From the NCBI RefSeq assembly GCF_001636295.1, contig NZ_CP014209.1:1302001-1366000 (forward strand): 64,000 bases of DNA. The letters are read 5' to 3'. The notes beneath the pieces are model-generated. The model worked only from the letters and a program-made list of their open reading frames with translations. It had not been told where the DNA came from and did no database searches. The stretch comes from Isoptericola dokdonensis DS-3 (lineage in GTDB: Bacteria; Actinomycetota; Actinomycetes; Actinomycetales; Cellulomonadaceae). Shown piece by piece: positions 4,349 through 52,163 of this stretch. The translations under genes were made by a program, and so were the position numbers. Every line of letters begins with the position of its first letter. Within the stretch, counting starts at the first letter, position 1.

Positions 4349-4813
4349 ATGGCCTCGACGACGAGCTCAGCCCTCGGCAACCTCCTCCGTGCGGGAGGCC
4401 GCGCGCCCGCCCGGCGCCGGCAGGTGTTCCATCCCGGCAGCGTCGGGATGCTGACCGGCGCGCTGCTGGTGGTGGTGGGCAGCCTCCTGCCGTGGGTCGT
4501 GACCCCCTTCGGGAACCTGGGCGGGACCGCGGGCCCGGGCCTGTGGACGCTGTGCGCGGGTTTCATCGCCCTGGCGGGCGCGCTGCTGCCGCGTCGCTGG
4601 GTGGCGATCTGGCACGCGGTCGTGGCCGGCGGCACGGCGGGGCTCGTCGTGGGCTGGCAGCTCGCGCGGCTGGTGCAGGTGATGTCCTCGACGAACTCCT
4701 GGGGGCAGGCCATGCCCGGCATCGGCCTGGTGATGGTGGGCGGCGGCGCGGTGGTGCTGCTCGCGACGGCCGTGCGGCTGGTCCGCAGGCCGGCCGTCGC
4801 ACCGGGTGCCTGA
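4349..4813 (+). CDS. small integral membrane protein, unknown function
   Basis: A 154-aa protein I cannot assign to a family. After a basic N-terminus (about 30 residues) there are about four hydrophobic segments: MLTGALLVVVGSLLPWVV, LWTLCAGFIALAGALL, a Gly-rich GGTAGLVVGWQLARLV helix, and GIGLVMVGGGAVVLLATAV. It ends with a short basic tail. It is divergent from the DUF4212-symporter operon across the phased operator array, so it may share that regulation. The ATG is chosen over upstream starts because of the -10 box directly before it. Confidence 0.7.
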   Translation: MASTTSSALGNLLRAGGRAPARRRQVFHPGSVGMLTGALLVVVGSLLPWVVTPFGNLGGTAGPGLWTLCAGFIALAGALLPRRWVAIWHAVVAGGTAGLVVGWQLARLVQVMSSTNSWGQAMPGIGLVMVGGGAVVLLATAVRLVRRPAVAPGA

Positions 4814-4863
4814 CGGGCCTCGATCCGTGCCCGGGAGGGCTTTCCCGGAGGAGCCGTCGTCCG

Positions 4864-4869
4864 TAGGGT
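4864..4869 (+). promoter_or_regulatory. -10 box TAGGGT, leaderless start of the 4878 gene
   Basis: TAGGGT with 8 nt to the ATG. It would drive the second symporter operon including the two-component genes. Confidence 0.5.
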
Positions 4870-4877
4870 TGCCCGAC

Positions 4878-5210
4878 ATGGACGACGACGTCGCGACCAC
4901 GGACACCGTGGCGGAGGTGGACGCCACCTTCCGCACGCTGCGCCGCGTCGCGGTCGGCTACTTCGTCGTCTTCGTCCTCGGCGTGGCCGCCTTCCCCGTG
5001 CTGTCCCTGACGCTGGACTGGTGGTCGCAGGCGCGGCTGCTGGGCGGCATGAGTCCCGGGTTCCTCGTGGCGGCGTTCGGGCTGTACGTGTTCTTCGCGG
5101 TCCTGGGCCTGGCGGCGGCACGCCTGTCGTCGGCGGTGGAGCACCGGATGCTGGGCGACACCCCGGCGACCGACGACGACCTGTTCCTCGACGACGGGCG
5201 CGCCCCGTGA
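4878..5210 (+). CDS. small two-helix membrane protein preceding the second symporter
   Basis: 110 aa with two membrane helices (about residues 24-43 and 64-86) separated by a short loop, acidic at both ends (MDDDVATTD... and ...DDDLFLDDG). Its stop overlaps the GTG of the next symporter (GTGA). Position, size and topology match the DUF485/DUF4212-like small subunits that accompany SSS symporters, but no signature residue settles which family. Likely role: assembly or regulation partner of the symporter. Confidence 0.72.
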   Translation: MDDDVATTDTVAEVDATFRTLRRVAVGYFVVFVLGVAAFPVLSLTLDWWSQARLLGGMSPGFLVAAFGLYVFFAVLGLAAARLSSAVEHRMLGDTPATDDDLFLDDGRAP

Positions 5211-38646: not shown

Positions 38647-39120
38647 TCAGCCACCGCGCGCGGTCGCGGTCGCCGTGACCGTGATGCCGCCGCCGAAGGC
38701 GTCGGTGAACCAGCGCAGCAGCGGCGGACGCGACGTCGCGGCGAGGGTCACGGTCGCGGACCGTCCGTCGGGCGTCGAGGCGTCGACCACGACGACGGAA
38801 CGGAGACCGGGCGCGGTGGCGGCGGACTGGAGCGCAAGATGCTCGGCCACCCGGTGCGCGACGGAGGCGTCGGTGAGCGTGAGGGTCCCCGTCGCGTCGG
38901 GGGCAGCCACGGCGTCGCCGTAGTACACGTCCTCGGGCATCGAGTCGGCGCCCGCGACCGCCAGGGAGTCGGCGAGGTCGAAGAGGTGCTTGCGGTCGAG
39001 ATGGACCGCGGCGGCCGACGACACCGCCGCGACCAGCATGAGACCCACGGCGAGGAAGCCGATGGTCAGCAGCATGATCCGCCCGTCGTCGTCGCCGGAA
39101 CGGGCGTGGGCACCCCTCAC
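38647..39120 (-). CDS. TadG-like pilus-locus protein
   Basis: 157 aa. GDDDGRIMLLTIGFLAVGLMLVAAVSSAAAVHLDRKHLFDLAD is the typical TadG N-terminus (DUF2134-type helix), followed by a beta-rich secreted part. It is much shorter than full TadG, which usually has a von Willebrand domain. GTG start overlaps the previous TadE-like stop. Last gene of the Tad operon, so its expression depends on read-through from the interrupted upstream part or an internal promoter. Confidence 0.82.
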   Translation of the reverse strand: MRGAHARSGDDDGRIMLLTIGFLAVGLMLVAAVSSAAAVHLDRKHLFDLADSLAVAGADSMPEDVYYGDAVAAPDATGTLTLTDASVAHRVAEHLALQSAATAPGLRSVVVVDASTPDGRSATVTLAATSRPPLLRWFTDAFGGGITVTATATARGG

Positions 39121-39605
39121 GGCCTGACCGCCACGTGCTCCTCGACGGGGGCGACGTGCGACGCCTCCACGGGGACGGCCACGGGCACCCAGCCCTGCAG
39201 CGCCGCGGGGACCAGCGGCAGGGGGACGCTGTAGCGCACGTGCACGCCGACGGTGGCGCCGGGCGTCAGGCAGGGCTGGTGCGAGCACTCGAGGGTGAGC
39301 AGCTCGCCCGGGTCGACCTCGAACCCCTGGTCCGCCAGCGCCAGGGCGGTGGCGGCCTGCGCCCGTGCCGCCCCCTGCGCCGAGGTCTCCGCCGTGACGA
39401 CGGACCGTGCGGCCTCCCGCGCCGCGCCCTCGACGGCGAACGCCGCCGCATGCACCTGCGCGAGCACGACCACCAGGTAGACCAGCGGCACGAGGAGCAG
39501 CACCCCGGCCCCGAGGAACTCGATCATCGCGGACCCCCGCTCGGCGTCGACGCCGCCTGCGCCGTCGGGCCCGCCGTCGACAACCGTCTCCCTGCTGCTG
39601 CGCAT
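39117..39605 (-). CDS. TadE-like minor pilin protein (copy 1)
   Basis: 162 aa. DAERGSAMIEFLGAGVLLLVPLVYLVVVLAQ (about residues 20-50) is the TadE signature, a hydrophobic pilin-like helix after Glu/Arg/Gly, followed by AAFAVEGAAREAARS. Two Cys (C-x4-C, ECSHQPC) are near residue 108. Overlaps its upstream and downstream neighbours by 1-4 nt. Probably assembled in the Tad pilus or its periplasmic platform. Confidence 0.85.
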   Translation of the reverse strand: MRSSRETVVDGGPDGAGGVDAERGSAMIEFLGAGVLLLVPLVYLVVVLAQVHAAAFAVEGAAREAARSVVTAETSAQGAARAQAATALALADQGFEVDPGELLTLECSHQPCLTPGATVGVHVRYSVPLPLVPAALQGWVPVAVPVEASHVAPVEEHVAVRP

Positions 39606-40018
39606 CAGGCGTCCTCGTCCAGGGCGTGCCCCTCGGCCGTCATCGTGCCGCTCGGTCCGAGCAGCCCGACGACGGGCAGCGGAGCCCGCACCGTGACCTC
39701 CACGACGGGCAGGCCGTCCCGGACCGTCTCGCGGACGCTCACGTCCCGTGCGTATCGCTCGTCGAGGGCCGTCGTGAGCAGGTCCCGGGTCCGGGCCGCG
39801 CCGGCGGCGAGGTCACGGTCCGTCCGCGCCGCGACGCGCGCCCCCTCGGCCGCGGCATCGACGACCAGCACCCGGACGTGCAACGCGAGCGCGAGCTGGA
39901 CGACGCCGAGGAACAGCGCCACCAGCAGCGCGGAGACGAGGACGAACTCCGCGACCGCCGACCCGCGCTCCCGCACGTCGCGGTCGCGGGCGTCGTCGAC
40001 GGCCGACGCCTCGCTCAC
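39605..40018 (-). CDS. TadE-like minor pilin protein (copy 2)
   Basis: 137 aa. VRERGSAVAEFVLVSALLVALFLGVVQLALALH is a clear TadE helix near residues 16-48, followed by VVDAAAEGARVAAR, then a small beta domain. GTG start; its end overlaps the ATG of the other TadE-like gene. Both TadE copies in one locus are typical of actinobacterial Tad operons. Confidence 0.85.
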   Translation of the reverse strand: MSEASAVDDARDRDVRERGSAVAEFVLVSALLVALFLGVVQLALALHVRVLVVDAAAEGARVAARTDRDLAAGAARTRDLLTTALDERYARDVSVRETVRDGLPVVEVTVRAPLPVVGLLGPSGTMTAEGHALDEDA

Positions 40019-40212
40019 GGACCGGTGACGCTCTGGATCGCGTCGGTGAACGTCTGCTCCAGGAGCGGACCGGCGAGCGCCCACAGGGCGACGACCAACC
40101 CGGCGGTCATGAGCGTGACGAGCACCCAGCCGGGCACGTCCCCCCGCTCGGGGTCGTCCACCGGTACGTCGACAGCGGAGCGGTCGGGGTGGTCGGTCGG
40201 GTCGGCGATCAT
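40015..40212 (-). CDS. small pilin-like protein of the Tad locus
   Basis: 65 aa. A polar acidic N-terminus (MIADPTDHPDRS...DDPERGD), then one hydrophobic helix (VPGWVLVTLMTAGLVVALWALAGPLL) and a short polar end. Position after tadC and before tadE is where actinobacterial Flp-type or small accessory pilins lie. It lacks a canonical Flp cleavage motif, so a membrane accessory role is possible. GAAAGGTG ribosome site; first intact gene after the split tadC. Confidence 0.7.
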   Translation of the reverse strand: MIADPTDHPDRSAVDVPVDDPERGDVPGWVLVTLMTAGLVVALWALAGPLLEQTFTDAIQSVTGP

Positions 40213-40240: not shown

Positions 40241-40339
40241 TCAGAGTCCGATCCGGAGCGTGGCCAGGGACGGGAAGACGGCGAAGACGACGGTGATCGG
40301 CAGCACCAGGAAGACCACCGGCACGAGCATGGCGAACTC
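40241..40339 (-). pseudogene. tadC: tadC, 3' fragment cut off by the integrative element
   Basis: Encodes the last 32 residues EFAMLVPVVFLVLPITVVFA... of a T2SSF membrane platform protein and has its own stop but no start. Joined at GAG (40337-40339) to the fragment ending at 49211, it restores an uninterrupted frame (GGKKE-FAMLV), giving a protein of about 310 aa, the normal TadC size. As it stands it is not translated as a protein on its own. Confidence 0.9.
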
Positions 40340-40357
40340 AAAACCACTAATCTGCCC
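40338..40357. other. left attachment site (attL), phage-type half-site
   Basis: TCAAAACCA (40338-40346), 4 nt, then TCTGCCC (40351-40357). These are exact complements, with the same spacing, of TGGTTTTGA and GGGCAGA at the right end. The half-site ends 2 bp before the integrase GTG. Confidence 0.85.
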
Positions 40358-40359
40358 TT

Positions 40360-41808
40360 GTGAGCACCCCGAAGCGCCCCGCCGCCGCCCCCGTCCGCGC
40401 CGCGATCTACGTCCGCATCTCGTCCGACCGGACGGGAGGCGGGCTCGGCGTCGAGCGGCAGGAAGCCGACTGCCGCGACCTCGCGGCCCGGCTCGGGTGG
40501 GACGTCGCGGCGGTCTACGCCGACAACGACGTCTCCGCGTACTCCGGTGCCCCCCGGCCCGGCTACCTCGCGATGCTGGACGACGTGAAGGCTGGGCGCG
40601 TGCAGGCCGTCGTCGCGTGGCACACCGACCGCCTGCACCGCCGCACCCTCGAACTGGAGGAGTTCGTCGCGCTCGCGGAGTCGCACGACCTGCAGGTGCA
40701 GACGGTCCGGTCCGGGCAGGTGGACCTCTCGACCGCCTCCGGCCGCATGGTCGCCCGGATGCTCGGCGCTGCTGCGCAGCACGAGGTGGACCACGCCCGC
40801 GAGCGTATGAAGCGCGCCAAGGTGCAGGCCGCGAAGGACGGCAAGTACCGGGGCGGGAAGCGCCCCTACGGGTTCGAGCGCGACGGCGTGACCCACCGCG
40901 AGGAGGAGGCGGACGTGATCCGCCACGCGACGAAGGCTGTCCTCGCTGGCCGCTCACTGCGGGCCGTGTGCCGCGACCTCAACGCCGAGGGGCACCTCAC
41001 GAGCGGCGGCAAGGAGTGGGGCCCGATCCTGCTCCGGGACGTGCTCCTGCGGGCGCGGAACGCGGGGCTCATCGCGCACGGGACCGCGAACCGAGCCGGG
41101 TTCGAGGTCATCGGCACCGCGCAGTGGGAGCCGGTCGTGGACGAGGACTCCTGGCGCGCGGTCGTGTCGCTGCTGACAAACCCGAAGCGACGCACCAACT
41201 CGACGTCGTCGGAGAACCGCTGGCTCGGGTCCTACCTCTACCGCTGCGGGCGCTGCGGTGCCGTCATGCGCGCGGACTCCACGGCCGGGCCGGGGTCGAA
41301 CCGGCCGAACCAGGCCAAGCGTGTCCACTACCGCTGCACTGCCGCTGCGCACCTCCAGATCACGCAGGAGCGCACCGACGCCTACGTGCGCGAGGTCGTC
41401 GCCGAGCGGGTGCGCGACCCCCGCGTCGTCGCCGCCCTGACGGCAGCGAAGGACTCCGACGCGGCGACCGCCGACCACGAGCGCCGCACCGCGCTCGCGG
41501 CCCGTCTCGCAGCGTTCGAGGACGACTACGCGGCCGGGCACCTCACGGGCGCGCAACTCGCCCGCGCCACGGCGACGGTCCAGGCCGAGGTCGAGCAGAT
41601 CGACGCCCGGCTCGCGGCCCGTGTGTCACGCTCCGCGCTCGCCCCGGTGCTCTCCTCGAACGACCCCGGGAAGGCGTTCCTCGACGCCCCTCTCGACGTC
41701 CAGCGCGCGGTGCTCGCCGCCGTGCTCCGCGTCGAGGTGCAGCCCGCGACGAAGCGCGGCGTCTGGTGGTCCCCCGAGCGGCTGACGCTGACGGCCGTGG
41801 GCGAGTAG
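40360..41808 (+). CDS. int: large serine integrase
   Basis: 482 aa. Resolvase-type catalytic domain (residues 12-150) with catalytic Ser in YVRISSD (about S21), GVERQEADCRDLA, and VVAWHTDRLHRRTLELEEF. The recombinase domain (about 170-275) is followed by a zinc ribbon YRCGRCGAVM ... HYRCTAAAH and a coiled-coil (about 365-415) typical of integrases controlled by a directionality factor. GTG start directly abuts attL. Integrates and excises the element at the tadC site. Confidence 0.96.
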   Translation: MSTPKRPAAAPVRAAIYVRISSDRTGGGLGVERQEADCRDLAARLGWDVAAVYADNDVSAYSGAPRPGYLAMLDDVKAGRVQAVVAWHTDRLHRRTLELEEFVALAESHDLQVQTVRSGQVDLSTASGRMVARMLGAAAQHEVDHARERMKRAKVQAAKDGKYRGGKRPYGFERDGVTHREEEADVIRHATKAVLAGRSLRAVCRDLNAEGHLTSGGKEWGPILLRDVLLRARNAGLIAHGTANRAGFEVIGTAQWEPVVDEDSWRAVVSLLTNPKRRTNSTSSENRWLGSYLYRCGRCGAVMRADSTAGPGSNRPNQAKRVHYRCTAAAHLQITQERTDAYVREVVAERVRDPRVVAALTAAKDSDAATADHERRTALAARLAAFEDDYAAGHLTGAQLARATATVQAEVEQIDARLAARVSRSALAPVLSSNDPGKAFLDAPLDVQRAVLAAVLRVEVQPATKRGVWWSPERLTLTAVGE

Positions 41809-41827
41809 GCCCTCTGCGGCTCGGCCG

Positions 41828-41860
41828 GAGCCCCCACGGTCCCCGCGACCGTGGGGGCTC
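41828..41860 (+). terminator. terminator after the integrase gene
   Basis: Perfect 13-bp stem GAGCCCCCACGGT / ACCGTGGGGGCTC, 7-nt loop, 19 bp after the stop codon. Confidence 0.8.
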
Positions 41861-41886
41861 CTGCTTGTCCAGATAGGGCATCTGCT

Positions 41887-41966
41887 CATGGATGGGTGGA
41901 GACCCCATGGATGGGTTCGCTCGGCGGCCGGATCATGTTGTTGGCATGGGGCTTTGGGCTTATGTT
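41887..41966 (+). promoter_or_regulatory. putative promoter and direct repeat upstream of the excisionase gene
   Basis: CATGGATGGGT occurs at 41887 and 41906 (19 bp apart). Downstream is TTGTTG (41938-41943), a 17-nt spacer and TATGTT (41961-41966), a recognisable -35/-10 pair. The region 41861-42150 holds no convincing gene; short open frames lack ribosome sites and codon bias. The direct repeats may bind a regulator or directionality factor. Confidence 0.45.
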
Positions 41967-42150
41967 CGAGACACACCGCTCGGGGGTCGGTCGCCTGATC
42001 GCCCGGGAGCACGGTCAGTCGCGCAACCCAGCACCGGGCACAGCGCGGGGAGGCGGCGAGGGAGCGACCCACCGGGTTCGCGAGGTGCGAGGTACAGCGG
42101 AACGGGACAACGCCTAGCGCCCCGGGACTGCGCGCTTCCCAGGAGCACTC

Positions 42151-42411
42151 GTGTCCGACCCGACCACTCCCGCCCGACTCCAGTACGTCTCCATCCCTGC
42201 GGCAGCCCGCATGTTCGGCCGCAGCGAGCAGACGATCCGCAACTGGCTGCACCGGGGCTACCTCACCCCTTACCGCGCTCCTGGCGAGCGCGGCGTGCGC
42301 GTGAACGTCCAGCAGGTGCGAGACATGCTGCGCTCGCAGCCGCCGAGCCGCGTCCACCGCGCCCGTCGGATCACCCACGCCGCCAAGCCGTTGCCCGCGA
42401 GCGCCCGATGA
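42151..42411 (+). CDS. excisionase-like helix-turn-helix protein
   Basis: 86 aa. YVSIPAAARMFGRSEQTIRNWLHRGYLTPYR (about residues 12-42) is a MerR-type winged helix as found in excisionases; an Arg/His-rich tail follows. GTG start with AGGAG site. Placed downstream of the integrase, it is the obvious directionality-factor candidate, though it could instead regulate the next operon. Confidence 0.8.
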   Translation: MSDPTTPARLQYVSIPAAARMFGRSEQTIRNWLHRGYLTPYRAPGERGVRVNVQQVRDMLRSQPPSRVHRARRITHAAKPLPASAR

Positions 42412-42536
42412 GCGTCGCCGACGTCGTCACCGCTGCCCGTCGAGCTGCTGCGGCACTTCCGCCCCTGACCGACGAGCAGGTCGCCCGCGTGGTCGCCGCG
42501 CTCTCCGCGAGCGCCCCGCCGGTGCGCCGACCCTAG
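42408..42536 (+). CDS. 42-aa hypothetical protein
   Basis: MSVADVVTAARRAAAALPPLTDEQVARVVAAL... Its ATG overlaps the excisionase stop (ATGA). The pattern LPPLTDEQVARV, helix-forming, is one I recognise as recurring in small proteins next to excisionases in actinobacterial mobile elements. Function unknown; too small to carry an enzyme. Confidence 0.6.
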   Translation: MSVADVVTAARRAAAALPPLTDEQVARVVAALSASAPPVRRP

Positions 42537-42623
42537 ACCGCCGCGCGGGCTGCACCTCTGCGGTCGAGGCGATCACCCCGGCTCCGGCCGGGAGCGGCCC
42601 GCGCGGCTCCCCCCAGATACGAC

Positions 42624-42654
42624 GACGGCCCCACCTGACCGGGGTGGGGCCGTC
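42624..42654 (+). terminator. terminator between the excisionase unit and the HNH gene
   Basis: Perfect 12-bp stem GACGGCCCCACC / GGTGGGGCCGTC, 7-nt loop. It ends 23 bp before the next start codon. Confidence 0.75.
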
Positions 42655-42677
42655 CAGACACCGAACGGAGAGATTCG

Positions 42678-43172
42678 ATGAGCACTACCGATGACCACCA
42701 GGCTACAGCGCGCACAGTTCGTTGGGCGTGCGAATGGGCGCGCCTTCCCGATGCGGACACGCCGACGTACGAGGCGGTCCACCGGCGGCTGCGGGCCTCG
42801 CTCGGGCGCGCCGCCGACCACGTATGCGCGACTTGCGGCGAGCAGGCTGCCGAGTGGGCCTACGACCACGGAGACCCCGAGGAGTTCGAGGGCACGTCCG
42901 GCGGGCGTCGCGGGGCCGTCGTCTACTCCATCGACCCGGAGCGCTACCGGCCCCTGTGCCTGCCCTGCCACCGCCGCGAGGACCGTCCCAAGCGCGACGT
43001 GTGCGGCTGGGGGCACGACATGAGCGAGGGGAGCGCGAACGTCTACGCTCCCCGCCCCGGCTACCGCCGCTGCCGCGCGTGCCACGCTGCCCGCGCTCGC
43101 GAGGAGCGCCTGGCTGCCCGGCTCGGGCTGTCTCGCGGCGTGCTCGTCTCGCACGGGCTCGGCGAGCGATGA
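42678..43172 (+). CDS. HNH-like zinc-finger protein
   Basis: 164 aa. Zinc knuckle C50-x2-C53, an AYDH with H64, and C94-x2-C97-H98 (CLPCHRRED) form an HNH/treble-clef pattern; a second set C109...H113 with C132-x2-C135-H136 follows. HNH nucleases of this type occur in actinophages and satellites. Whether it cuts DNA is unproven, because the second catalytic His is not obvious. GGAGAG site before ATG; overlaps repA. Confidence 0.7.
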   Translation: MSTTDDHQATARTVRWACEWARLPDADTPTYEAVHRRLRASLGRAADHVCATCGEQAAEWAYDHGDPEEFEGTSGGRRGAVVYSIDPERYRPLCLPCHRREDRPKRDVCGWGHDMSEGSANVYAPRPGYRRCRACHAARAREERLAARLGLSRGVLVSHGLGER

Positions 43173-44263
43173 GCCCCCACGAGGTGGCGGCGGAGCAGGC
43201 GCGCCGCGCCGCCTTGCGAGCTCGCTTCCCGGCAACCAACTTCGCGACGTTTCGCGACCGCCCGGCACGACAGTGGCACGTCCCGGGGCTCCTGCCGGTA
43301 GGCGCTCAGGTGTCCCTGGTCGCGGGAGCCGGTGCCGGGAAGTCGAATCTCGCGCTCGACCTGGCGCTGCACATCTCCCAGGGCTTGCCGTGGGCGGGGC
43401 TGGCACCGGCCTACGACCCGCTCTACAGCGAGGACTACGCGCCCTCGGTGCTGTACGTGGACATGGAGAACGGCCCCGACGACCTGGAGGAGCGCCGGGG
43501 CGCGCTGCGCGCCGCCGAGGGCGTGGACCCGGAACGGTTCATCCACCAGTGGATGCCGGACCTGCCGGGTCTGGACACCGCCGCCGGTGCTCGGGCGCTC
43601 ACGGACATGCTCGACGGCTGGTTCATCGCCGAGGGTGACCTGCTCGTGCTCGACTCGCTCCAACGGCTCACCGAGGGGCCGGAGGACAAGGGCGACACGA
43701 TGCGGGCCTACTACCGGCACACGGCCGCGATGCTGCGCCGTCGAGGGATCACCGTGCTGCGAACCGACAACACCGGCAAGGACGAGTCACGCGGCGCTCG
43801 CGGCTCGCGAGCGAAGCAGGACGACGTAGACATCGAGTGGTCGCTGCGGCGCACCTCCTCGGGCCTCACGTTGCGGCCGACGAAGAACCGGACCGGCGTC
43901 GCCCCGCTCGCCGTCGAGGCGGACATGGGCACGCTGCCGGACGGTCGCCCGGTCGTCACCGGCTACCGGTGCGCGCAGGCGAAGACCGACGTGACCATCA
44001 TCGAGCGCGAACCTCGCGACGCCCTCCTCATCGCCCTTGCGGACGACGTGAGCGCACCGCGCTCCGGGTCCGGCCTGACGGCCCACCTCGGCTGGGGAAA
44101 GGGCCGGACCGCCCGCGAGCGCACGCAGGGGCTTCTCGACACGCTCGCCGCCGAGGGTCTGGCCGAGAACCGAGGCGAGGGGAAGCACCCGCGCTGGTAC
44201 GTCACTGCGGCAGGGAAGGACGCTGCTGCCGAGGTGCGCGAGCGAGACGAGGCGGAGGCGTGA
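43169..44263 (+). CDS. RepA-like AAA ATPase (AAA_25)
   Basis: 364 aa. Walker A GAGAGKSN (53-60), Walker B LLVLDS (158-163), and the sensor region VLRTDNTGKDESRGARGSRAKQD characteristic of RepA/KaiC-like primase-helicases of plasmids and phages. The C-terminal 90 residues include a winged-helix-like SGSGLTAHLGWGKGRTARERTQGLLDTLAAEGLAEN. ATGA overlap with the HNH-like gene. Likely to unwind DNA at an origin; the iteron-like array follows at once. Confidence 0.88.
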   Translation: MSPHEVAAEQARRAALRARFPATNFATFRDRPARQWHVPGLLPVGAQVSLVAGAGAGKSNLALDLALHISQGLPWAGLAPAYDPLYSEDYAPSVLYVDMENGPDDLEERRGALRAAEGVDPERFIHQWMPDLPGLDTAAGARALTDMLDGWFIAEGDLLVLDSLQRLTEGPEDKGDTMRAYYRHTAAMLRRRGITVLRTDNTGKDESRGARGSRAKQDDVDIEWSLRRTSSGLTLRPTKNRTGVAPLAVEADMGTLPDGRPVVTGYRCAQAKTDVTIIEREPRDALLIALADDVSAPRSGSGLTAHLGWGKGRTARERTQGLLDTLAAEGLAENRGEGKHPRWYVTAAGKDAAAEVRERDEAEA

Positions 44264-44273
44264 CCGCCGGATC

Positions 44274-44468
44274 GGTTGCCCTTCTGGTTGGCAGCGGGGC
44301 AACCGAGGGGGCAACCAACCAGAGGGGCAACCAGGGGGCAACCGGCTCCCGAGAACCTCAGAATTCCAACGATTCTGGTTGCCCCCCAAGGGGTAACCAG
44401 GGGGCAACCACGGTGTAGATGGGGGTTGGTTGCCCCCTGCCCACACCCCGAAGGGGTGGGGGGCAACC
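44274..44468. repeat. iteron-like array, GGGGCAACC
   Basis: GGGGCAACC starts at 44296, 44308, 44324, 44335, 44401 and 44460, with GGGGTAACC at 44390. The complement GGTTGCCC(C) starts at 44274, 44377 and 44428. Ten copies fall within 195 bp, on both strands. CACCCC gaa GGGGTG (about 44443-44457) can form a hairpin. The array lies directly after the RepA-like gene, where a replication origin or replication control site is expected. Confidence 0.8.
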
Positions 44469-44562
44469 AACCAACACACCCGCCCGTGGCGGGGGATGAT
44501 GAAGAAGCACGACCACGAGTCGCTGGCAGCAGGGCCGGACTCTCCGAACGAAGGAGAGAGCC

Positions 44563-44886
44563 ATGTCCAGCACGACCGGCACCGCTGCGCGAGCCGCCCG
44601 CAAGAAGCGCGCGAAGGAGCGCGCCCGACAGGACGCGCCGCAGCCCACCCTCGAAGTCCTCGCCCGCGCCGAGCGAGAGCGGCGAGCACGCGCCGACGAG
44701 GTCGCCCTCGCAGGCCGCGCGGTCATCCTGTGCGCCGGGTGCGAGACGCCGGTGCTCGCCTCCCGGCCCCGCGCCGGGGTCCTGTGCCCCGAGTGCGCCC
44801 GCCCGGCGGCGCTCCGGCCACGCTCGACGCCGCTGAACGACTCGCTCGGTCCGGCGATCCGCTCGGCGCTGGCGGTGTCGCGATGA
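44563..44886 (+). CDS. small zinc-ribbon protein
   Basis: 107 aa. An N-terminal very basic stretch (ARAARKKRAKERARQ) and central CAGCETPVL...LCPECARP, a C-x2-C...C-x2-C zinc ribbon. GGAGAGAG ribosome site. Probably a DNA- or RNA-binding accessory factor of the element; it is followed without a gap by the next gene (ATGA). Confidence 0.7.
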   Translation: MSSTTGTAARAARKKRAKERARQDAPQPTLEVLARAERERRARADEVALAGRAVILCAGCETPVLASRPRAGVLCPECARPAALRPRSTPLNDSLGPAIRSALAVSR

Positions 44887-45278
44887 AGGTCCTGTCCTAC
44901 GCCGAGGGCGTCCTGCCCCGGATGCCACGCCGCCTGCCCCCGCTGCCGCCCGCCGAGCCGGAGCCGGTCACGTGGGCCTCCCTCGGGCTCGACCCCGCCG
45001 ACGCCGCCGCCCTGGCCCGCCTCGCGGCCCGTGAGGAGTCCCTCGACCGCGTGCGCTGGGTCGCCGCAGGCCGTGCCCACCAGCGCGCCGAGGTCGAGCG
45101 GACCGGCCAGCGCAACGCCGCCCGCCGCGCGGCCGTCCTCGCGGGCCTGCCCGCCCTGCTCGCCCAGCGCCGGGCGGAGACCGCCCGGCAGGACGCCGAC
45201 GCGGCAGCCCTCGACGCCGAGCGCGCCGATGAGCTCGACCGCTCGCGGCGCGTTCTCGCGTCGCTGCGCACCCGATGA
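44883..45278 (+). CDS. hypothetical charged helical protein
   Basis: 131 aa, about 45 percent Ala/Arg/Glu by eye, with long predicted helices from residue 35 on (ALARLAAREESLDRVRWVAAGRAHQ...). The N-terminus is Pro-rich (RMPRRLPPLPPAEPEP). No family recognised. The stop overlaps the next open frame (ATGA). Codon use fits a real gene. Confidence 0.62.
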   Translation: MKVLSYAEGVLPRMPRRLPPLPPAEPEPVTWASLGLDPADAAALARLAAREESLDRVRWVAAGRAHQRAEVERTGQRNAARRAAVLAGLPALLAQRRAETARQDADAAALDAERADELDRSRRVLASLRTR

Positions 45279-45298
45279 CCGACACCCCCGGAGGAACC

Positions 45299-46405
45299 AT
45301 GAGCACCACGACCGACACGACCACCGACGCCTCGACCCGCTGGACCGTCCTCGACGGCCCCGACGCGCTCGCCTGCGGCTGGTGCGGGATCGCCGTCCCC
45401 GAGCCGGGCGAGCGGCCCGCCTGGACCATCGAGGAGGCCCCCACCATCGCCGGGTTCCGTGAGGACTCCCCGGTGCGCGCCGGTGCGCGGCACACGTTCA
45501 CGCGCTGCGACCAGTGCGCCCAGCGCCGCGCCGAGGCCGGGGCGATCAGCCAGCCGGAGGCGTCCCGCTGGCACCGCCGCTACGGCAGCAGCGCCGCCGC
45601 GTTCGACGCCGCCGAGGCCGTGCTCGCCGCCCTCGACATGCTTGGCCGGCCCCGCGCCGAAGCCCACGCGCCGGACGCCGCCGTGACCCTCGCCGGGCTC
45701 GTCGCGGGCGGCACGGCCCTGCGCTGGTCGGGCTGGTTCATGCCCCGCCGTGCGGCCGGTGTGCCGCTGCGCGGCGCGACGACCGCCCCGTGGGCGCACA
45801 TCGAACGTGAGGACCCTGACGGCGCTGTGGCCGCGCTCCGGGACGCCTACGGAGCCGTGCTGCGCCGCCGCGTCGCCGCCCGTGTTCCCGCGAGCACGAC
45901 GCACGCCGCCGTGCCCGCCCCGGTCACCCTTGCAGGTCACTGGGCCCTGCCCGACCGGCACCTCGCGGCCCTCGGCGGCTGCCTGCTCTGCGGCGTCGCC
46001 AGCGCCGTCCCGCCCGCCTCGGTCCCCGGCCACCGGCTGCTGACCCCCGCCGCGCGCCTCGCCGCCACCTGGCACCCGGCGACCTGCAACCCGCAGTCCC
46101 TCGGCGGTCACCGGTCGCTGCGCACCAGCGGGCGACGCGCGGCCGGGTTCCTCTGCCCGCCCTGCCACGACGCGGCCGCGCGGGTCGGCGACGGGGATAC
46201 GGTCGATGCCGCCGCCCGTGACGCCGCCCTGGCCGCCTGGCTGCGCGAGCACCAGCCCGAGGACGTCGCCGGGCTCCGGGTCGGCGGGACCGACCCCGCC
46301 TTCGACCAGCGCCGCACACCCGCGTGGGCAGTCCTCGCGACCTGGGACACGCTGCGCGGCGTCACGCGGCATGGGAACGTGACGCCCTGGGCGCACCTGC
46401 GCTGA
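45299..46405 (+). CDS. hypothetical protein with several Cys pairs
   Basis: 368 aa. Zinc-finger-like pairs: ACGWCGI (near residue 30), CDQCAQRR (near 72), GGCLLCG (near 225) and LCPPCHD (near 283). No catalytic motif recognised. The ATG has a GGAGGA site 9 nt upstream; an earlier in-frame ATG overlaps the previous gene. Last gene of the plus-strand operon that begins with the zinc-ribbon protein. The multiple C-x2-C pairs suggest nucleic-acid binding. Confidence 0.65.
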   Translation: MSTTTDTTTDASTRWTVLDGPDALACGWCGIAVPEPGERPAWTIEEAPTIAGFREDSPVRAGARHTFTRCDQCAQRRAEAGAISQPEASRWHRRYGSSAAAFDAAEAVLAALDMLGRPRAEAHAPDAAVTLAGLVAGGTALRWSGWFMPRRAAGVPLRGATTAPWAHIEREDPDGAVAALRDAYGAVLRRRVAARVPASTTHAAVPAPVTLAGHWALPDRHLAALGGCLLCGVASAVPPASVPGHRLLTPAARLAATWHPATCNPQSLGGHRSLRTSGRRAAGFLCPPCHDAAARVGDGDTVDAAARDAALAAWLREHQPEDVAGLRVGGTDPAFDQRRTPAWAVLATWDTLRGVTRHGNVTPWAHLR

Positions 46406-46485
46406 GTGGGTGACGAAAAAGGACGTCGCGGCAACGCGCCAGTTCGTCCGTACCACACAACGCCATGAGCGGGTGCGCCAGTCGC

Positions 46486-46803
46486 TCAGGGCATAGTCCG
46501 GTAGCGAGGGGCGCTCGGCGTAGAGGCATTTTCGTCGGCATCCAACAGTGCCTCAACCGCGTCCGCAGTTCGCTCGCCGTTAAAGATGTGCTCCTCGAAC
46601 AGGTCCACGAGGCGCAGCGTCGCCAGCGCGTAGAAGACCAGAGCGCCTAGGAGTAGCACGCTCCCGACTACGACCGCCCAAGTTCCGTTGCTTTCTAGCG
46701 TCACCAGTCCGGCAATGAGTCCGGCGTAGCCCACGAGCGATAGCCCAATGGCGGCGATGAGGTAGACGCCAGAGGTGGACCTCTCCGGCCTGCTGCTGGA
46801 CAT
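46486..46803 (-). CDS. small two-helix membrane protein of the cargo block
   Basis: 105 aa. Two hydrophobic helices (VYLIAAIGLSLVGYAGLIAGLVTL and WAVVVGSVLLLGALVFYALATLRLV), then an acidic cytoplasmic tail with FEEHIFNGERTADAVEALLDADE. GTGAGGCAG precedes the ATG. Visibly lower G+C than the chromosome. Unknown function; it sits beside a restriction-type gene, so an accessory or effector role in defence is possible. Confidence 0.6.
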   Translation of the reverse strand: MSSSRPERSTSGVYLIAAIGLSLVGYAGLIAGLVTLESNGTWAVVVGSVLLLGALVFYALATLRLVDLFEEHIFNGERTADAVEALLDADENASTPSAPRYRTMP

Positions 46804-46953
46804 GTGCTGCCTCACTCGGATCGATGTGTGCTCTGGACGCGCAAGACTAGCGGCCCCTGTCAGGAAACTGGGGCTTCTCCGCCCAGTGGAAGGATTTCAC
46901 CCGTGGAATGCTTCAGGCGGTCGGGGCCGTCGGGGAGGTCGGGGCGGAACCGG

Positions 46954-47865
46954 TCAACCAGCACTGGGGGTCGCGGGCGGGTCTTGTCGCTGGAATCCGG
47001 TGCCCTCTTCCCAGATCACGCTGCACCGATGCTCGTGGAGGAGTCCGATCAGGTCGTCGCTTGGCCGGAGAGGCAGAAGCAGTGCCCTGGACCTGTGCCC
47101 GATGAAGCGCCCGTAGTCGAGAATCTGCCCGAGTCCGGCACGGACGAAGGTTCGAGCGGCGGACGCCTTCGCCTCAATGAGTTCGTCGGTGGTCTTGTTG
47201 AAGACATCGGTGAACATGTACCCACCGCCGGGTATTGGCAGGCGGTGGCGACACGTGGCCTGACCTCGGACGTTGAGCCAATCAACGTATCGGCTGACGA
47301 GGAGAGCCTCGCGGCGAACGGCCGCGTTCGGCTCGTCTGGGCGCTCTGCGGCGTACACGTCGATGTTTCGAGCCTCGATCGGGAGTTCCTCCGGCTCGGG
47401 CGTGTCTGCGTCGGCCAGGTCTTCGGTATCGCGGAGAACATCCCCCGTCGGTACCAACCTGAAGACGAGAACCGATCGCGTCTCGCCGTTGCGGTCCAGG
47501 GCGTCGGCTCGGTAGTAAGGCGGATCAGCGAGCTCAAACTCGCCTGCGTACGTGGTGAGGCGTCCAGCACTCCGGAACACTCGGATAGTCCTGCCAAGCT
47601 GCTCCGCGATCATGACGGCCTTGTTACCACCGAGAGCGAGCGACTGGTCGCCCTCCTGGCCGTCACCCGTGTAGTGATAGGTGCCGTCAGAGTGCCAACC
47701 GTCGTACTTGTATCCGAAGGCACCGCCCGCGCTTGGGTTGCTGAAGAGGAAGACGCTCGCAGCCTTCACGGATGGCTCCATGCCACCGTAGCGGCCTCCG
47801 CCCCAGCGGTCATGGAGCTCTCGTCGGAGCAGGGTCTCTCCGACAGCGATGTCCCAGTTAGTCAT
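46954..47865 (-). CDS. probable modification-dependent restriction enzyme, SRA-like plus PD-(D/E)XK
   Basis: 303 aa. N-terminal region (residues 1-140) carries GGMEPS, SVFLFSNPSAGGAFGYKYDG and HSDGTYHYTGDGQEGDQ...GGNKA, which match the SRA-like domain of ScoMcrA-type type IV enzymes as I know it. The C-terminal part has a nuclease pattern: D220, then E231-A-K233 (LIEAKAS), then Q247 (GQILDYGRF). This looks like a base-reading domain fused to a PD-(D/E)XK nuclease, with no HNH or ATPase. A GTG 33 nt upstream is another possible start. G+C is low for the window. Confidence 0.72.
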   Translation of the reverse strand: MTNWDIAVGETLLRRELHDRWGGGRYGGMEPSVKAASVFLFSNPSAGGAFGYKYDGWHSDGTYHYTGDGQEGDQSLALGGNKAVMIAEQLGRTIRVFRSAGRLTTYAGEFELADPPYYRADALDRNGETRSVLVFRLVPTGDVLRDTEDLADADTPEPEELPIEARNIDVYAAERPDEPNAAVRREALLVSRYVDWLNVRGQATCRHRLPIPGGGYMFTDVFNKTTDELIEAKASAARTFVRAGLGQILDYGRFIGHRSRALLLPLRPSDDLIGLLHEHRCSVIWEEGTGFQRQDPPATPSAG

Positions 47866-47937
47866 GGATTGAGCGAACCACGACCGTACGACATCCACGT
47901 GTGCGACGCCGTGGCGGCACTGGCTCGGTGACCCTCG

Positions 47938-48468
47938 CTACGTCCTGGACGGCGTGTCTGCCCTACGGAGCCAGCGCCACCGCCCCGTCCGACTGACCTT
48001 GGGCTCGATCAGTTCTGGACGGCTAAGGTATGGGACCTTCCAGATGCGCCACTCGGCGTCGTTGACCAGGAGGAACGCGTCGCGGAGCAGCCCGGCGGTT
48101 TCGATCTCAAGATCGACGGTGGCCTCGTCACCCGGTGCAAGGTCCCCGACGACTCGGCCTGTGATCGCCCCGCTAAGGCTGCTCCTGCCTTCCAGTTGTA
48201 CGTGCTGCAGCGGGCCGTCGGAGTCGTTGGACACGCGCCAGCGCTGGACCCCCTCAGGAGCGTTCCGCAGGTCCTGGCGGAACCGGACATGGCTGATCTG
48301 TGCCCCCTCGCGCAACCGGCGCGACTCAGCCTCAGCCGCCCTGCGGTCCCGCCGCTCAACGAACCAGAACACGAAGGGGGTGAGGATGGCCAAGAGGCCG
48401 ACGACCGCCTGGGCGGCGTCCCAGTTGATTCCCCCCGCAGCCGCCCCGGCGGCGAGCACGATGGTCAT
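47938..48468 (-). CDS. membrane-anchored protein of the cargo block
   Basis: 176 aa. One N-terminal membrane helix (AQAVVGLLAILTPFVFWFVERRDRR), a short basic coiled segment, then a beta-rich domain of about 100 residues (VRFRQDLRNAPEGVQRWRVSNDSDG ... VDLEIETAGLLRDAFLLV), facing the cytoplasm. No family recognised. Divergent from the gene at 48577. Possibly part of the same cargo function. Confidence 0.6.
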   Translation of the reverse strand: MTIVLAAGAAAGGINWDAAQAVVGLLAILTPFVFWFVERRDRRAAEAESRRLREGAQISHVRFRQDLRNAPEGVQRWRVSNDSDGPLQHVQLEGRSSLSGAITGRVVGDLAPGDEATVDLEIETAGLLRDAFLLVNDAEWRIWKVPYLSRPELIEPKVSRTGRWRWLRRADTPSRT

Positions 48469-48562
48469 GCGGGCGACCGTAGCGGTGCTCGCTGACAGAC
48501 GCTCGGCGGCCGGGACCCAGCATCGTGCCGTGGTTGCAGCAGCCTAGGCTCCGACCAAACCC

Positions 48563-48568
48563 TAAGAT
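48563..48568 (+). promoter_or_regulatory. -10 box TAAGAT, leaderless start of the 48577 gene
   Basis: TAAGAT with an 8-nt gap to ATG, the best -10 in the cargo block. Confidence 0.5.
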
Positions 48569-48576
48569 TCCTGCAC

Positions 48577-49155
48577 ATGCCGCCCATCGAGATCGTACTG
48601 AATCAGGACTCTGGAGTCTGGACCACCTGGGGACCGCCAGTGGTGACTGCGATTGGCTCCATCACCGTCGCTCTGCTCACGCTCTTTGGAGTGCTGAGAG
48701 CGGCGTCTAGGAATGCTACGGCGGCTCGCAAGGCAGCGGCGCGGTCCGCCCGGGCACTGATCGAGGTTGAGAACGCGCGGATGGAGACCGAGCATCGGAG
48801 GCATCTACGGGAACTCATCGCCGAGTTCGGCGCTCTCACGATGCGGCGCGTAACGCTGATGAACGACGTCGCAGCCCAGAGGCAACTCACTGAAGAGTCG
48901 CCAGTCATCCTTCTAGACAGGAACCTTCACGATTTCATGAAGAGCGCGTCGCTCGTCCTTCTTGCGACCCGTGACGAACGCCTGCGGGCCGGTGTCAGGG
49001 AAGTCACCGACGCCGAGCGCGAGGCGAGCCGGATCGGTTCGCGCCTCTCGTCTGACCAAGACCTGGATGCTCTCGCTGGCGCCGCCCAACGTGTCGCCGA
49101 GGCAAGCGGTGCACTGGTCGGTACAGCCGCGGCGATCCTCGCCGAAGACGGCTGA
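48577..49155 (+). CDS. membrane-anchored helical protein of the cargo block
   Basis: 192 aa. A membrane helix near residues 16-42 (GPPVVTAIGSITVALLTLFGVLRA) is followed by a long helical, charged cytoplasmic region (about 48-190) rich in Arg/Glu/Ala. No known domain. It is the last gene before attR and reads toward it. Its topology (helix then cytoplasmic coiled coil) mirrors the neighbour at 47938. Confidence 0.62.
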   Translation: MPPIEIVLNQDSGVWTTWGPPVVTAIGSITVALLTLFGVLRAASRNATAARKAAARSARALIEVENARMETEHRRHLRELIAEFGALTMRRVTLMNDVAAQRQLTEESPVILLDRNLHDFMKSASLVLLATRDERLRAGVREVTDAEREASRIGSRLSSDQDLDALAGAAQRVAEASGALVGTAAAILAEDG

Positions 49156-49187
49156 CGTGCGAATCGGGTGGCCAGCGGTCATGGGGA

Positions 49188-49213
49188 GGGCAGAAACCTG
49201 GTTTTGACACCTC
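49188..49213. other. right attachment site (attR), phage-type half-site with CTC core
   Basis: GGGCAGA (49188-49194), 4 nt, TGGTTTTGA (49199-49207), then CAC and the core CTC (49211-49213). With the left half-site it forms a 44-bp symmetric attP: 7+4+9+4+9+4+7. Confidence 0.85.
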
Positions 49214-50047
49214 CTTCTTGCCGCCGGCCTCCATGAGGGCACGGCGTCCGGCCTCCCGGACGTCCTGCGCCTGGGCGCGCAGGACGTCGGCGAGCGGCGT
49301 CCCTCGTTCGAGCGCGACGGCGACACCCTCGGAGAAGCGGGTGAGCGTGGCGAGGCCGGTGCGGTCGGCCATCGCGTGCAGGGCCCCGACGATCGGGGTT
49401 CCGGCGCGGACGTCCGCCAGCATGGCGGCGAGCTCGTCGGAGAGCTCGCCGCGGGCGGTGGCGGCCACCCGCTCCAAGGCGGGCACGGGACCTTCGCCCG
49501 CGGTGACGGCGAGGGCGAGGAGCTCGGCGACGGTGGGGAACTCGGCGAGCATCTGCTCCTCGCGGCGGCGGGCGGCCGCGGTCAGCTGCTGGTCGCACAG
49601 GACGAAGCCGACGGCGCCGACGATGAGCACGAGCACGGCCAGCACGACGGGCGGGCTGTCCCGGGTGGCGGCCAGGAGGAGGGCCAACGCGAGGCCCACC
49701 GCGAGCGCCGCCGTGGTCCAGACGAGCTGCCGGGCACGGAACTGCTCGACGGAGTCCGGGAGCCCTGCTCGCTCGAGGCGCCGCTGCACGTCGGCCCGGC
49801 TCGAGCCGAGGCGTTCGAACCAGTCGGCGACGTCGACGACGACGGGTGCGAGCAGCCGTTCCAGGGGTCCGAGCGTCCGCGGGACGTCGGAGTCCCGCAG
49901 CAGGGCCGAGCGTCGGTCACGGGGACGCAGGGTCGGGGCGAGCCGCTCGTCGAGGCTGATCCGGCGACGGCGGACCCCGGACGCGACGAGCACCAGGCCG
50001 AGGCCTGCGATCAGGCCGACGAGGGCGCCGAGGGCGGCCGGCGTCAT
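49211..50047 (-). pseudogene. tadC: tadC, 5' fragment interrupted by the integrative element
   Basis: Host part is 279 codons: an N-terminal helix, cytoplasmic T2SSF region, helices (TAALAVGLALALLLAAT; VVLAVLVLIVGAVGFVL), and AGRRALMEAGGKKE where the element enters. Reading continues into the element and stops at 49004, adding about 69 foreign residues and losing the final membrane helix. The Tad platform is therefore probably not functional while the element is present. ATGA overlap with tadB. Confidence 0.9.
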
Positions 50048-50901
50048 CGCAGCACCCGCCGTTCCTCGGGCAGGCGGCCGATCCGGCGCATGACCCGGTA
50101 GGCGACGACTGTGCAGACGGCACCGGAGACGAGGACCGCCACCCCCGCGGCGGAGTCGTAGGCCGCCGCCGTCTGGGGCCGAGTGGCGAGGAGCGCAAGG
50201 ACGATCCAGGGTCCCGCCGCCGCGACGCGGGCACCGTTGACGGTCCACGACTGCCGTGCCTCGAGCTCGCCACGGGTGCGGGCGTCCTCCCGCAGGAACT
50301 CCGAGAGGTTGCGCAGCAGCCGACCGAGGTCGGTGCCCCCGACGTCCCGGGTCAGGCGCAGGGCCTCGACGATCCGGTCGGCCACCGGGTCGGCGAGCCG
50401 GTCCTTGAGGAGGTCGAGGCACTCGCCGAAGCGACCGGTGGCACGGTAGTCGGCGGCGAAGCGGGCGAACGGCTCGCGCAGCGGTGCGGGTCCGCGCTCG
50501 CCGAGCTGGGCGACGGCCTCGGGGAGGGACAGCCCGGCGCGGACGCCGGAGGACAGGTGGTCGACGACGTCGGGCCACACCTGGCGCAGGTCGTCGCGGC
50601 GCCGTCGGGCCCGGGTGCGGACGAGGGCGCCGGGCGCGACGGCGGCGAGCACGGCGAAGGCGGCGGCGATGACCGGCGAGCGGGTGACCGCGACCCCGAC
50701 GAGCAGCACGACGACGGCGGTGCCGGCACTGACGAGGTACAGCCCGCCGGGGGTGACGGTGGGTGCACCGGCCTGCACGAGGAGGTCCTGGAGGGCCTGG
50801 TGGCGCGCGCTGCGGCGGCGCGTCCGCGTGGGCCGTTCCCAGCAGGACCACCACAGGCTGAAGAGCCCCGCGCCGCCGACCAACCCGACCACGACCCCCA
50901 T
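50044..50901 (-). CDS. tadB: TadB inner-membrane platform protein
   Basis: 285 aa T2SSF-family protein. An N-terminal helix (MGVVVGLVGGAGLFSLWW), a helix pair near residues 60-95, the cytoplasmic T2SSF core (DVVDHLSSGVRAGLSLPEAVAQLGERGPAPLREPFARFAADY) and a C-terminal helix pair. Partners with TadC as platform for TadA. Starts and ends in ATGA overlaps with tadA and tadC, so the operon is compact. Confidence 0.92.
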   Translation of the reverse strand: MGVVVGLVGGAGLFSLWWSCWERPTRTRRRSARHQALQDLLVQAGAPTVTPGGLYLVSAGTAVVVLLVGVAVTRSPVIAAAFAVLAAVAPGALVRTRARRRRDDLRQVWPDVVDHLSSGVRAGLSLPEAVAQLGERGPAPLREPFARFAADYRATGRFGECLDLLKDRLADPVADRIVEALRLTRDVGGTDLGRLLRNLSEFLREDARTRGELEARQSWTVNGARVAAAGPWIVLALLATRPQTAAAYDSAAGVAVLVSGAVCTVVAYRVMRRIGRLPEERRVLR

Positions 50902-52163
50902 CAGGCGTCCCCGCTGAGCAGGGCGTGGACGTCCACGCCGATGCGCTCGTACCGCTCGACGCCTGCGGGGAAGCCGTCCCCGCGGACCAGCTCGCCACCG
51001 AGCGCGACCGGACGACGCCGGAAGATCTGGGCGGTCTCCACCCTGTCCTCCTCGACGCGTCCGGTGACCGCGACGACCTCCCGCACCTGCCGCACGCCGT
51101 CGGGCGTGACACCGAGGTGGACGACGAGGTCGAGGGACGCGGCGACGGCCGGGGTGACGAAGCGGTCGGAGACGTTCTCGCCCGCCAGCAGTGGCAGGGT
51201 GCACATCTTCGTGACGGCCTCCCGCGCGGAGTTGGCGTGCAGGGTGCACATCCCGGGTACGCCCGCGTTGAGGGCGACGAGCAGGTCGAAGCTCTCGGCC
51301 TCGCGGACCTCGCCGATGACGATCCTGTCGGGGCGCATCCGCAGCGCTTCTTTGACGAGGCGCCGCAGCGGGATCTCGCCCGTGCCCTCCAGGGAGGGTT
51401 GTCGGCACTGCATGGCGACCTGGTCGCGGACGGGCAGCCGGAGCTCGAAGACCTCCTCGCAGGTGACGACCCGCTGCCCGGCGGGGATCGAGCCGGCGAG
51501 CGCGTTGAGCATGGTCGTCTTGCCTGCCTGGGTGGCGCCGGCGACGAGGACGTTGGCGCCGGCGCGGACGGACGCGTCGAGGAACCGGGCGGCGTGCGGG
51601 GTGAGCGACCCGAGGCGCACCATGTGGTCCAGGTGGTGGGCGCGGACGACGTGCTTGCGGATGTTGACGGCCATGTGCTCGCGCGTGACGTCGGGGATGA
51701 CGACGTGCAGCCGTTCCCCGCCGGGGAGGGTGGCGTCGACGAACGGGCTGGACAGGTCGAGCCGGCGGCCGCTGACCTTGAGCATGCGTTCGACGAGGTC
51801 GCGCACCTGGTCGGCGGTGAGCAGCGTGGTGGTGAGCTCGCTGACGCCGCGGCGGGCGACGAACACCTGCGCCGGGGAGTTGATCCAGATCTCCTCGATT
51901 TCGGGGTCGTCGAGGTAGGGCTGGAGTGGACCGAGCCCGCCCAGGGAGTCGGCGACGGCGCGGGCGGTCGCCTCGGGGTCGGCGAGGGCGGGCACGACGC
52001 CGAGGGCGGCACGTTCGGTGTAGTCGGCGAGGGCGTCGGCGACGAGCTGCTCGAGCCCGGCGCGGTCGCCGACGGGGTCGAGGCCGCGCCGCCTCACGAG
52101 CTCGCGCACCTCGCGCGCGACGGTGCTGACGGCGTCGTCGCGCGCCATGACGTCGATGGTCAC
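50901..52163 (-). CDS. tadA: TadA/CpaF secretion ATPase
   Basis: 420 aa motor of the Tad pilus. Walker A GATQAGKTT near residue 210, an Asp-box (VTCEEVFELRL), and Walker B/His box RPDRIVIGEVREAESFDLL and TLHANSAREAV. The N-terminal domain binds the hexamer neighbour (ELVRRRGLDPV...). GTG start with GAGAGGTT site. First gene seen of the locus; a CpaE/septum-site ATPase gene, often upstream, is not present. Confidence 0.95.
   Translation of the reverse strand: MTIDVMARDDAVSTVAREVRELVRRRGLDPVGDRAGLEQLVADALADYTERAALGVVPALADPEATARAVADSLGGLGPLQPYLDDPEIEEIWINSPAQVFVARRGVSELTTTLLTADQVRDLVERMLKVSGRRLDLSSPFVDATLPGGERLHVVIPDVTREHMAVNIRKHVVRAHHLDHMVRLGSLTPHAARFLDASVRAGANVLVAGATQAGKTTMLNALAGSIPAGQRVVTCEEVFELRLPVRDQVAMQCRQPSLEGTGEIPLRRLVKEALRMRPDRIVIGEVREAESFDLLVALNAGVPGMCTLHANSAREAVTKMCTLPLLAGENVSDRFVTPAVAASLDLVVHLGVTPDGVRQVREVVAVTGRVEEDRVETAQIFRRRPVALGGELVRGDGFPAGVERYERIGVDVHALLSGDA

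Follow-up and report, generated by a model that had tools for sequence, protein, structure and literature searches.

A serine-integrase element splits tadC in Isoptericola dokdonensis DS-3, and related integrases recur in tad and comM genes

The window analyzed here, a 64,000-nucleotide stretch of the 3.83-Mb single-contig genome of Isoptericola dokdonensis DS-3 (G000:C1:1302001-1366000), contains a Tad-pilus operon whose tadC gene is split by an integrated element with a large serine recombinase (LSR) integrase. We put forward that the element is probably one of a set whose members would disable DNA uptake through the Tad pilus and would so avoid deletion by transformation. A wider proposition, to which we would give about even chances, is that the knock-out of DNA uptake by the Tad pilus (by way of tadA and tadC, not the dispensable tadB) has evolved again and again among the serine-integrase elements of Actinobacteria, alongside that of comM. 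The splitting of tadC by a serine-integrase element, already the claim of the original prediction, is borne out by the Pfam and PHROG matches of the integrase and by sister genes. The integrase gene adjoins one element end, and its Resolvase and Recombinase domains score above the Pfam cut-off, its zinc ribbon below it. With the joined TadC as query, a match was found in 17 of the 18 genomes of the genus, and tadC is uninterrupted in 13 of the 18; the closest congener (G116) is 91% identical over residues 23-310 and reads GGKKEVAMLVP across the site.

On the minus strand the gene order is tadA, tadB, the 5' part of tadC, the 8.9-kb interruption, the 3' end of tadC, a flp-like gene (named by eye, without Pfam match), TadE (PF07811, 7e-10), an unmatched gene, and a TadE/G-like gene (PF13400, 2.7e-4, just below the cut-off). 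The pilin-side genes downstream of tadC now lie 8.9 kb away from the tadA end of the operon. Joining the flanks in silico yields, as originally predicted, a single TadC frame of 310 residues without inner stop. As the gene stands, the frame of its 5' part runs on to position 49004 inside the element and encodes a hybrid of 347 residues, in which 279 native residues are followed by a 68-residue element-encoded tail and the C-terminal membrane segment is gone.

The location of related integrases bears on the meaning of this insertion. Scanning GTDB contigs for relatives of the integrase brought up 31 loci, and searches at a strict cut-off found matches in 10 of 200 family, 10 of 396 order, and 4 of 394 class genomes, with some genomes counted more than once across these searches. 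Fragments of CpaF/TadA, ComM, or TadC are recurrently encoded directly upstream of these integrases, and for 16 of the relatives the remaining gene half is present at the far end of the element. A total of 104 loci were offered to tree construction: 84 supplied a usable integrase, and the rest were either too short (four) or without a match at 1e-8 (16). Together with the window and the second integrase of one locus (L063) this gives 86 rows; L111, L046, and L049 were left out because they represent the same places as L055, L006, and L002, respectively, as was the fragment L032. The gene adjacent to the integrase is tadA-type in 25 of the 86, comM in 12, tadC in six, and other or unrecognized in 43 (L006 and L017 were labeled by hand, and L068, whose comM N-terminal half lies 9 kb from the integrase, is counted as other). 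The same procedure applied to five control genes (prfB, ftsE, ftsX, an aminotransferase, and lysE) returned 0/86 for each, and tadB as the interrupted gene was likewise found beside none of the 86 integrases.

To avoid choice by resemblance, LSR genes were also drawn blind to their targets with the Pfam Recombinase model. In the order draw (59 genomes; the window's own locus and two rows without locus omitted), 9 of 29 LSR loci lie in tadA (three), tadC (two), or comM (four). The class draw (118 genomes, with well over 100 matches listed) places 3 of 28 newly fetched loci in tadA (two) or tadC (one), so that 12 of the 57 pooled loci are in tad/comM genes. The binomial chance of such counts is 4e-19 for the order and 1e-5 for the class, on the assumption that the target makes up 0.15% of the genome and with kinship ignored. 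The nine order integrases found in tad/comM genes are at most 44% identical to one another, and 21 of 48 integrase clusters (50% identity) target tadA-type, tadC, or comM genes. Furthermore, the insertion positions within tadA, tadC, and comM are many and different, and the integrases that use them are as little as 25-30% identical to that of the window. In this pattern, integrases that have diverged from one another converge on competence genes. In a quick maximum-likelihood tree of the integrases, whose long branches leave the deep parts unsure, 24 label changes are needed (tadA 13, comM 8, tadC 4), and the window falls in a nine-row group (SH-like approximate likelihood-ratio test, SH-aLRT, 95) of seven tadA, one comM, and one tadC.

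Two further features of these loci were observed. A core CGACCT is common to comM targets (TTCGACCT; L055, L056), tadA (TCGACCT; L002), and tadC (GCGACCT; congeners L124-L141), and may have eased target switching in the integrase group. At locus L014 two serine recombinase genes lie side by side in opposite orientation; their identities to the integrase of the window are 39.6% and 25.8%.

The machinery of natural transformation in Actinobacteria is best defined in Micrococcus luteus, where it is Tad-dependent. In that species each gene in the two tad clusters, save Mlut_07510 (tadB in the strain table), proved necessary in deletion mutants, which lost transformability, with polar effects not excluded by the authors (PMC4322843). 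The tadA-tadB-tadC order is the same as in the window, and the tadA and tadC deletions were non-transformable; no mobile element is involved there. The requirement for tadC, the gene split in our host, is thus taken from a different genus. ComM, for its part, is a helicase that aids recombination of taken-up DNA (PMC11472951). As far as is known, a role in transformation is all that tadA, tadC, and comM have in common. That tadA-type, tadC, and comM genes are targeted alike points to natural transformation rather than to adhesion, the function that the original prediction had assigned to the interrupted gene. If insertions were spread over the three tad genes in proportion to length, tadB would receive 28% of them; the chance of zero tadB insertions over the 16 tad cluster-target pairs (50% identity) is about 0.5%.

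In the course of events that we propose, the integrase would have joined attP, the attachment site of the element, to a chromosomal attB in tadC of the form GGCAAGAAGGAG-GT-CGCCATG. Loss of the C-terminal membrane segment of TadC would abolish the pilus platform, and the pilin genes, now far from the operon start, would possibly be starved of transcription through polarity. Without a pilus there would be no DNA uptake, and without uptake the homologous flanking DNA of element-free cells could not replace the element, which would so escape the chromosomal curing conceived by Croucher and colleagues (PMC4774983, PMC12637031). A subsequent change from GT to TT in one of the att sites would then have blocked excision and fixed this copy.

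The structure of the element ends bears on the last of these steps. The sequence GGCAGAAACCTGGTTTTGAC at one end and the reverse complement of CTCAAAACCACTAATCTGCC at the other are equal at 15 of 20 positions, with axes at 40335-40336 and 49209-49210. A shared GAG (CTC), which the original prediction had taken for the joining core, was rejected as the crossover, since axes placed there are only 4-5/20 symmetric. The tadC site reads GAG-GT followed by C or G (KKE-V) in all 16 congeneric rows that span it, a count that omits the 34%-identical paralogue row L142. On the tadC strand, the ancestral GT is retained at the 5' junction and TT is found at the 3' junction, so that a joined gene would read KKE-V with the base of the former and KKE-F with that of the latter. 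The large-serine-integrase hallmark of matching att central dinucleotides fails here (AA vs. AC on the plus strand). Serine integrases require matching central dinucleotides, and a mismatch was reportedly found by Ghosh in 2008 to stop productive excision. In the Bxb1 integrase, cleavage occurs around the central dinucleotide, which sets polarity (PMC3642061); efficient strand exchange by serine integrases takes place only in parallel alignment (PMC3783163), and matching core dinucleotides address insertion (PMC10083194). With GT at one att site and TT at the other, integrase-driven excision is predicted to be blocked, and this copy would be a lock, fixed rather than switchable. The GT to TT change most likely postdates integration, since attP would not have matched an attB with TT. 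The assignment as an integrated copy therefore stands and the claim of excision falls.

Both gene halves are available for 17 loci, the window included, of which eight have a clear axis with an in-frame join and nine are unclear (for L004, L007, and L065 the better protein join was chosen over the best symmetry). The central dinucleotides match in six of the eight (AG/AG or CT/CT) and are mismatched in the window and in L007. The latter, a tadA-inserted relative from a metagenome-assembled genome, shows AG versus AA, and locking may thus recur. The integrase gene itself begins with GTG three bases past the 20-bp att arm, and a -10-like box precedes the GTG by six bases, an arrangement found alike in L003, L005, L006, L007, L008, and L065; the relatives read like TAAAATTGACATATG. 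The gene thus looks leaderless, and its upstream half would change upon integration or excision. A promoter scan found no two-box promoter at this end, and TAATCT would be the putative promoter element.

Four of the 18 genomes of the genus have a split tadC. The split lies at codon 279/280 in the window (G000). In G110 it lies near codon 255; an integrase 30% identical to that of L101 starts at the junction, and the 3' part is on another contig. The tadC of G132 is split near codon 285 by a 4.6-kb insert whose decayed integrase has become fused to a different reading frame, and that of G094 near codon 286 by a 10-kb insert with an integrase; these two sites look alike. The element of the window was found at the same tadC site in no other of the 18 genus genomes. 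Splits at about codon 255, 279/280, and 285-286 by different elements do not, therefore, represent one conserved intervening element of the sigK/skin kind. Among the eight of 18 genomes in which comM was checked, the gene is whole in five (that of the window included) and broken, with an integrase at the break, in G021, G103, and G094; for G103 no middle part was found, and the C-terminal piece lies on a separate contig. At least 6 of the 18 genus genomes have a tadC or comM insertion, and G094 has both. In the wider family, G090 has one element in tadA and another in tadC. The decayed integrase of G132 (L171, reverse strand 4746-6608, recognized by eye) has a primase-like N-terminus fused to it in frame and extends beyond the tadC 3' end into the flp-like gene. 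The tadC element of G090 (L063, 10040-17607 from the first integrase) has major-capsid-like and DUF3631-like reading frames (by eye) and an integrase 30% identical to that of the window.

A number of observations weigh against an origin of these insertions in the avoidance of transformation. Half of the integrases (43/86) have other or unrecognized neighbors, e.g., a SpoU methylase, LigD, a histidine kinase, or DUF1349, and Pfam, in 54 of the 80 listed frames beside these LSRs, revealed no further com genes. Of the 25 tadA-type genes, 11 encode distant ATPases of the CpaF/TadA family, which are 36-42% identical or matched over the C-terminal part only and may or may not belong to a Tad operon (L005, L006, L010, L022, L023, L024, L025, L027, L030, L031, and L071). 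A tad/comM flank was seen in none of 22 IMG/VR viral-contig loci, only 15 of which have more than 300 bp upstream. Target labels are more clustered on the integrase tree than in shuffles; thus, the counts are not independent and the events are fewer than the rows. The sparing of tadB is drawn from a small number of independent events, and transformation of M. luteus still fell more than 100-fold, in one orientation, when tadB was lost (PMC4322843). The transformability of the host and its relatives is an assumption: comEC is present in all 26 hosts tested, but its presence in 10 of 14 control genomes as well makes this a weak indication. Finally, the second of two insertions in one genome (tadA and tadC in G090, tadC and comM in G094) gains nothing against uptake, and, as Tad pili have a role in adhesion too, impaired uptake might be incidental to a conserved landing site.

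In an alternative scenario that builds on such a landing site, tadA, tadC, and comM are conserved, dispensable genes with stable attB sites, and the loss of uptake is a by-product. That many LSRs are site-specific (PMC10083194) agrees with this, as do the CGACCT core common to several of the targets and the presence of two insertions in G090 and G094. Nevertheless, such a safe harbor would not call for so many positions, used by integrases of such low identity to that of the window, nor for the lack of any hit in tadB or in the five control genes, and the three targets are linked, as far as is known, by transformation alone. We regard this scenario as possible but rather unlikely. The original prediction offered another, in which conditional excision acts as a regulated switch that restores tadC and the pilus. 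Active lysogeny at comK and skin in sigK are known prophage-like switches of this sort, and gin in gerE is a further precedent. The in-frame join of the flanks holds for precise excision here as it does in those systems, and the element has a candidate recombination directionality factor. However, the att dinucleotides differ and no element is conserved across the genus; moreover, a decayed LSR remnant lies inside the G132 tadC, and comM is also among the targets. A regulated switch thus appears improbable. The insertion might also be that of an ordinary mobile element of hard-wired specificity that met tadC by chance and draws no benefit from its target. The half of the LSRs that sit elsewhere and the viral-contig loci would fit such an account, but 12 of 57 target-blind loci against an assumed 0.15% of genome length render it very improbable. 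Disabling of DNA uptake by the element remains the explanation that we prefer.

The features of the window are collected in table 1. The ten element proteins fall into the PHROG categories integrase, regulator/excisionase, HNH, replication-like, and unknown. No virion gene (capsid, portal, terminase, or tail) was found among them with PHROGs, where the HTH protein has one weak match to a small terminase (2e-4), and neither an FtsK-type translocase nor a relaxase was found among the ten; the element is thus assigned neither to the prophages nor to the actinomycete integrative conjugative elements. The GGGGCAACC repeats likely form a replication origin of the excised form and, with the replication-like ATPase, suggest that the element could replicate when free. 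The relative of ScoMcrA-like proteins, without match in our own Pfam and PADLOC searches, is likely type IV restriction cargo, judging from its domain, and the element may repay its host with defense; PADLOC gave no informative match for the element cargo. Weak relatives (26-31% identity) of the 376-residue cysteine-rich protein occur in elements at comM (L004) and tadA (L007, L008, and L065), so the integrase group of the window shares more than the integrase; a database search for homologs returned the protein itself alone among 7990 candidates scored. The right part of the element (46400-49210) has a GC content of 65%, lower than that of the left part (75%) and of the remaining window (74%), and its cargo is therefore likely of foreign source.

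Table 1. Features of the split tad operon and of the inserted element (positions in the window).
Feature	Position	Strand	Evidence or remarks
tadA (CpaF-type ATPase), intact	50901..52163	-	Pfam T2SSE 3e-37
tadB, intact	50044..50901	-	Pfam T2SSF 9e-11
tadC 5' part, 279 codons to GGKKE (49211-49213)	49211..50047	-	Pfam T2SSF; congener alignment
tadC 3' part (EFAMLVP...RIGL, stop), C-terminal membrane segment, detached from its own start	40241..40339	-	
tadC-downstream genes: flp-like, TadE, unmatched, TadE/G-like	38647..40212	-	
Integrated element, 8874 bp	40337..49210		End symmetry; junctions compared with intact tadC of 13 congeners
attP arm, int-proximal	40337..40356		15/20 inverted repeat of 49189-49208; contains -10-like TAATCT (40348-40353)
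attP arm, opposite end	49189..49208		
Central dinucleotide, tadC 3' (int-proximal) junction	40335..40336		AA on +, TT on tadC strand
Central dinucleotide, tadC 5' junction	49209..49210		AC on +, GT on tadC strand
Large serine integrase, 482 aa	40360..41808	+	Pfam Resolvase PF00239 9e-31, Recombinase PF07508 4e-9; phrog_95 integrase 2.5e-90
HTH_17 protein, 86 aa, candidate recombination directionality factor or regulator	42151..42411	+	Pfam, PHROG
HNH-endonuclease-like protein, 164 aa	42678..43172	+	Best match phrog_4160 (function unknown) 2e-23; best HNH phrog 2e-5; no Pfam match
AAA_25 helicase/replication-like ATPase, 363 aa	43172..44263	+	Pfam, PHROG
Eight GGGGCAACC repeats, iteron-like	44296..44468		0.63 expected over whole window
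107-aa protein with CxxC pairs, no family	44563..44886	+	
376-aa cysteine-rich protein	45275..46405	+	
109-aa small protein, membrane-like by eye	46486..46815	-	DUF3040 below cut-off only
Relative of ScoMcrA-like SRA-domain proteins	46954..47898	-	PF26348 precomputed for protein and most relatives
176-aa protein, no family	47938..48468	-	
192-aa protein	48577..49155	+	No Pfam, PHROG, or NCBIfam match; weak PADLOC match TmtA, 0.0075

In relating these results to known systems, we take the magnesium chelatase/ATP-dependent protease of the published LSR survey to be comM-type. In that survey LSR targets are strongly enriched in DNA competence genes, and the magnesium chelatase/ATP-dependent protease is targeted by 12.4% of the predicted site-specific integrases (Durrant et al. 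2022, PMC10083194); the words "pilus," "secretion," and "ATPase" do not occur in its main text, and its supplement may list the T2SSE domain of TadA. The disruption of competence genes (comK, comYC, comFA, and comM) by mobile genetic elements is, furthermore, an established strategy (Croucher et al. 2016, PMC4774983). As in the cases treated there, an integrated element splits a transformation gene and diverged integrases converge on that gene; here, in contrast, the target is the actinobacterial Tad pilus and the integrase a large serine recombinase, and the main text of that paper is without "tad," "flp," "Actinobacteria," "Micrococcus," and "serine recombinase." The targeting of comM and competence genes by LSRs is thus already published, and among the papers listed by our literature searches we found none on the Tad pilus as a target.

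If the class-wide targeting holds, the genome record hints at where DNA uptake works, at the species to test, and at the Tad genes that matter. Should this be so, the Tad pilus would join other competence genes in the conflict over chromosomal curing, and the broken Tad operons seen, for instance, in this genus would be explained. Under the wider proposition given at the outset, Tad-dependent natural transformation would be widespread in the phylum and strong enough to select elements that kill it.

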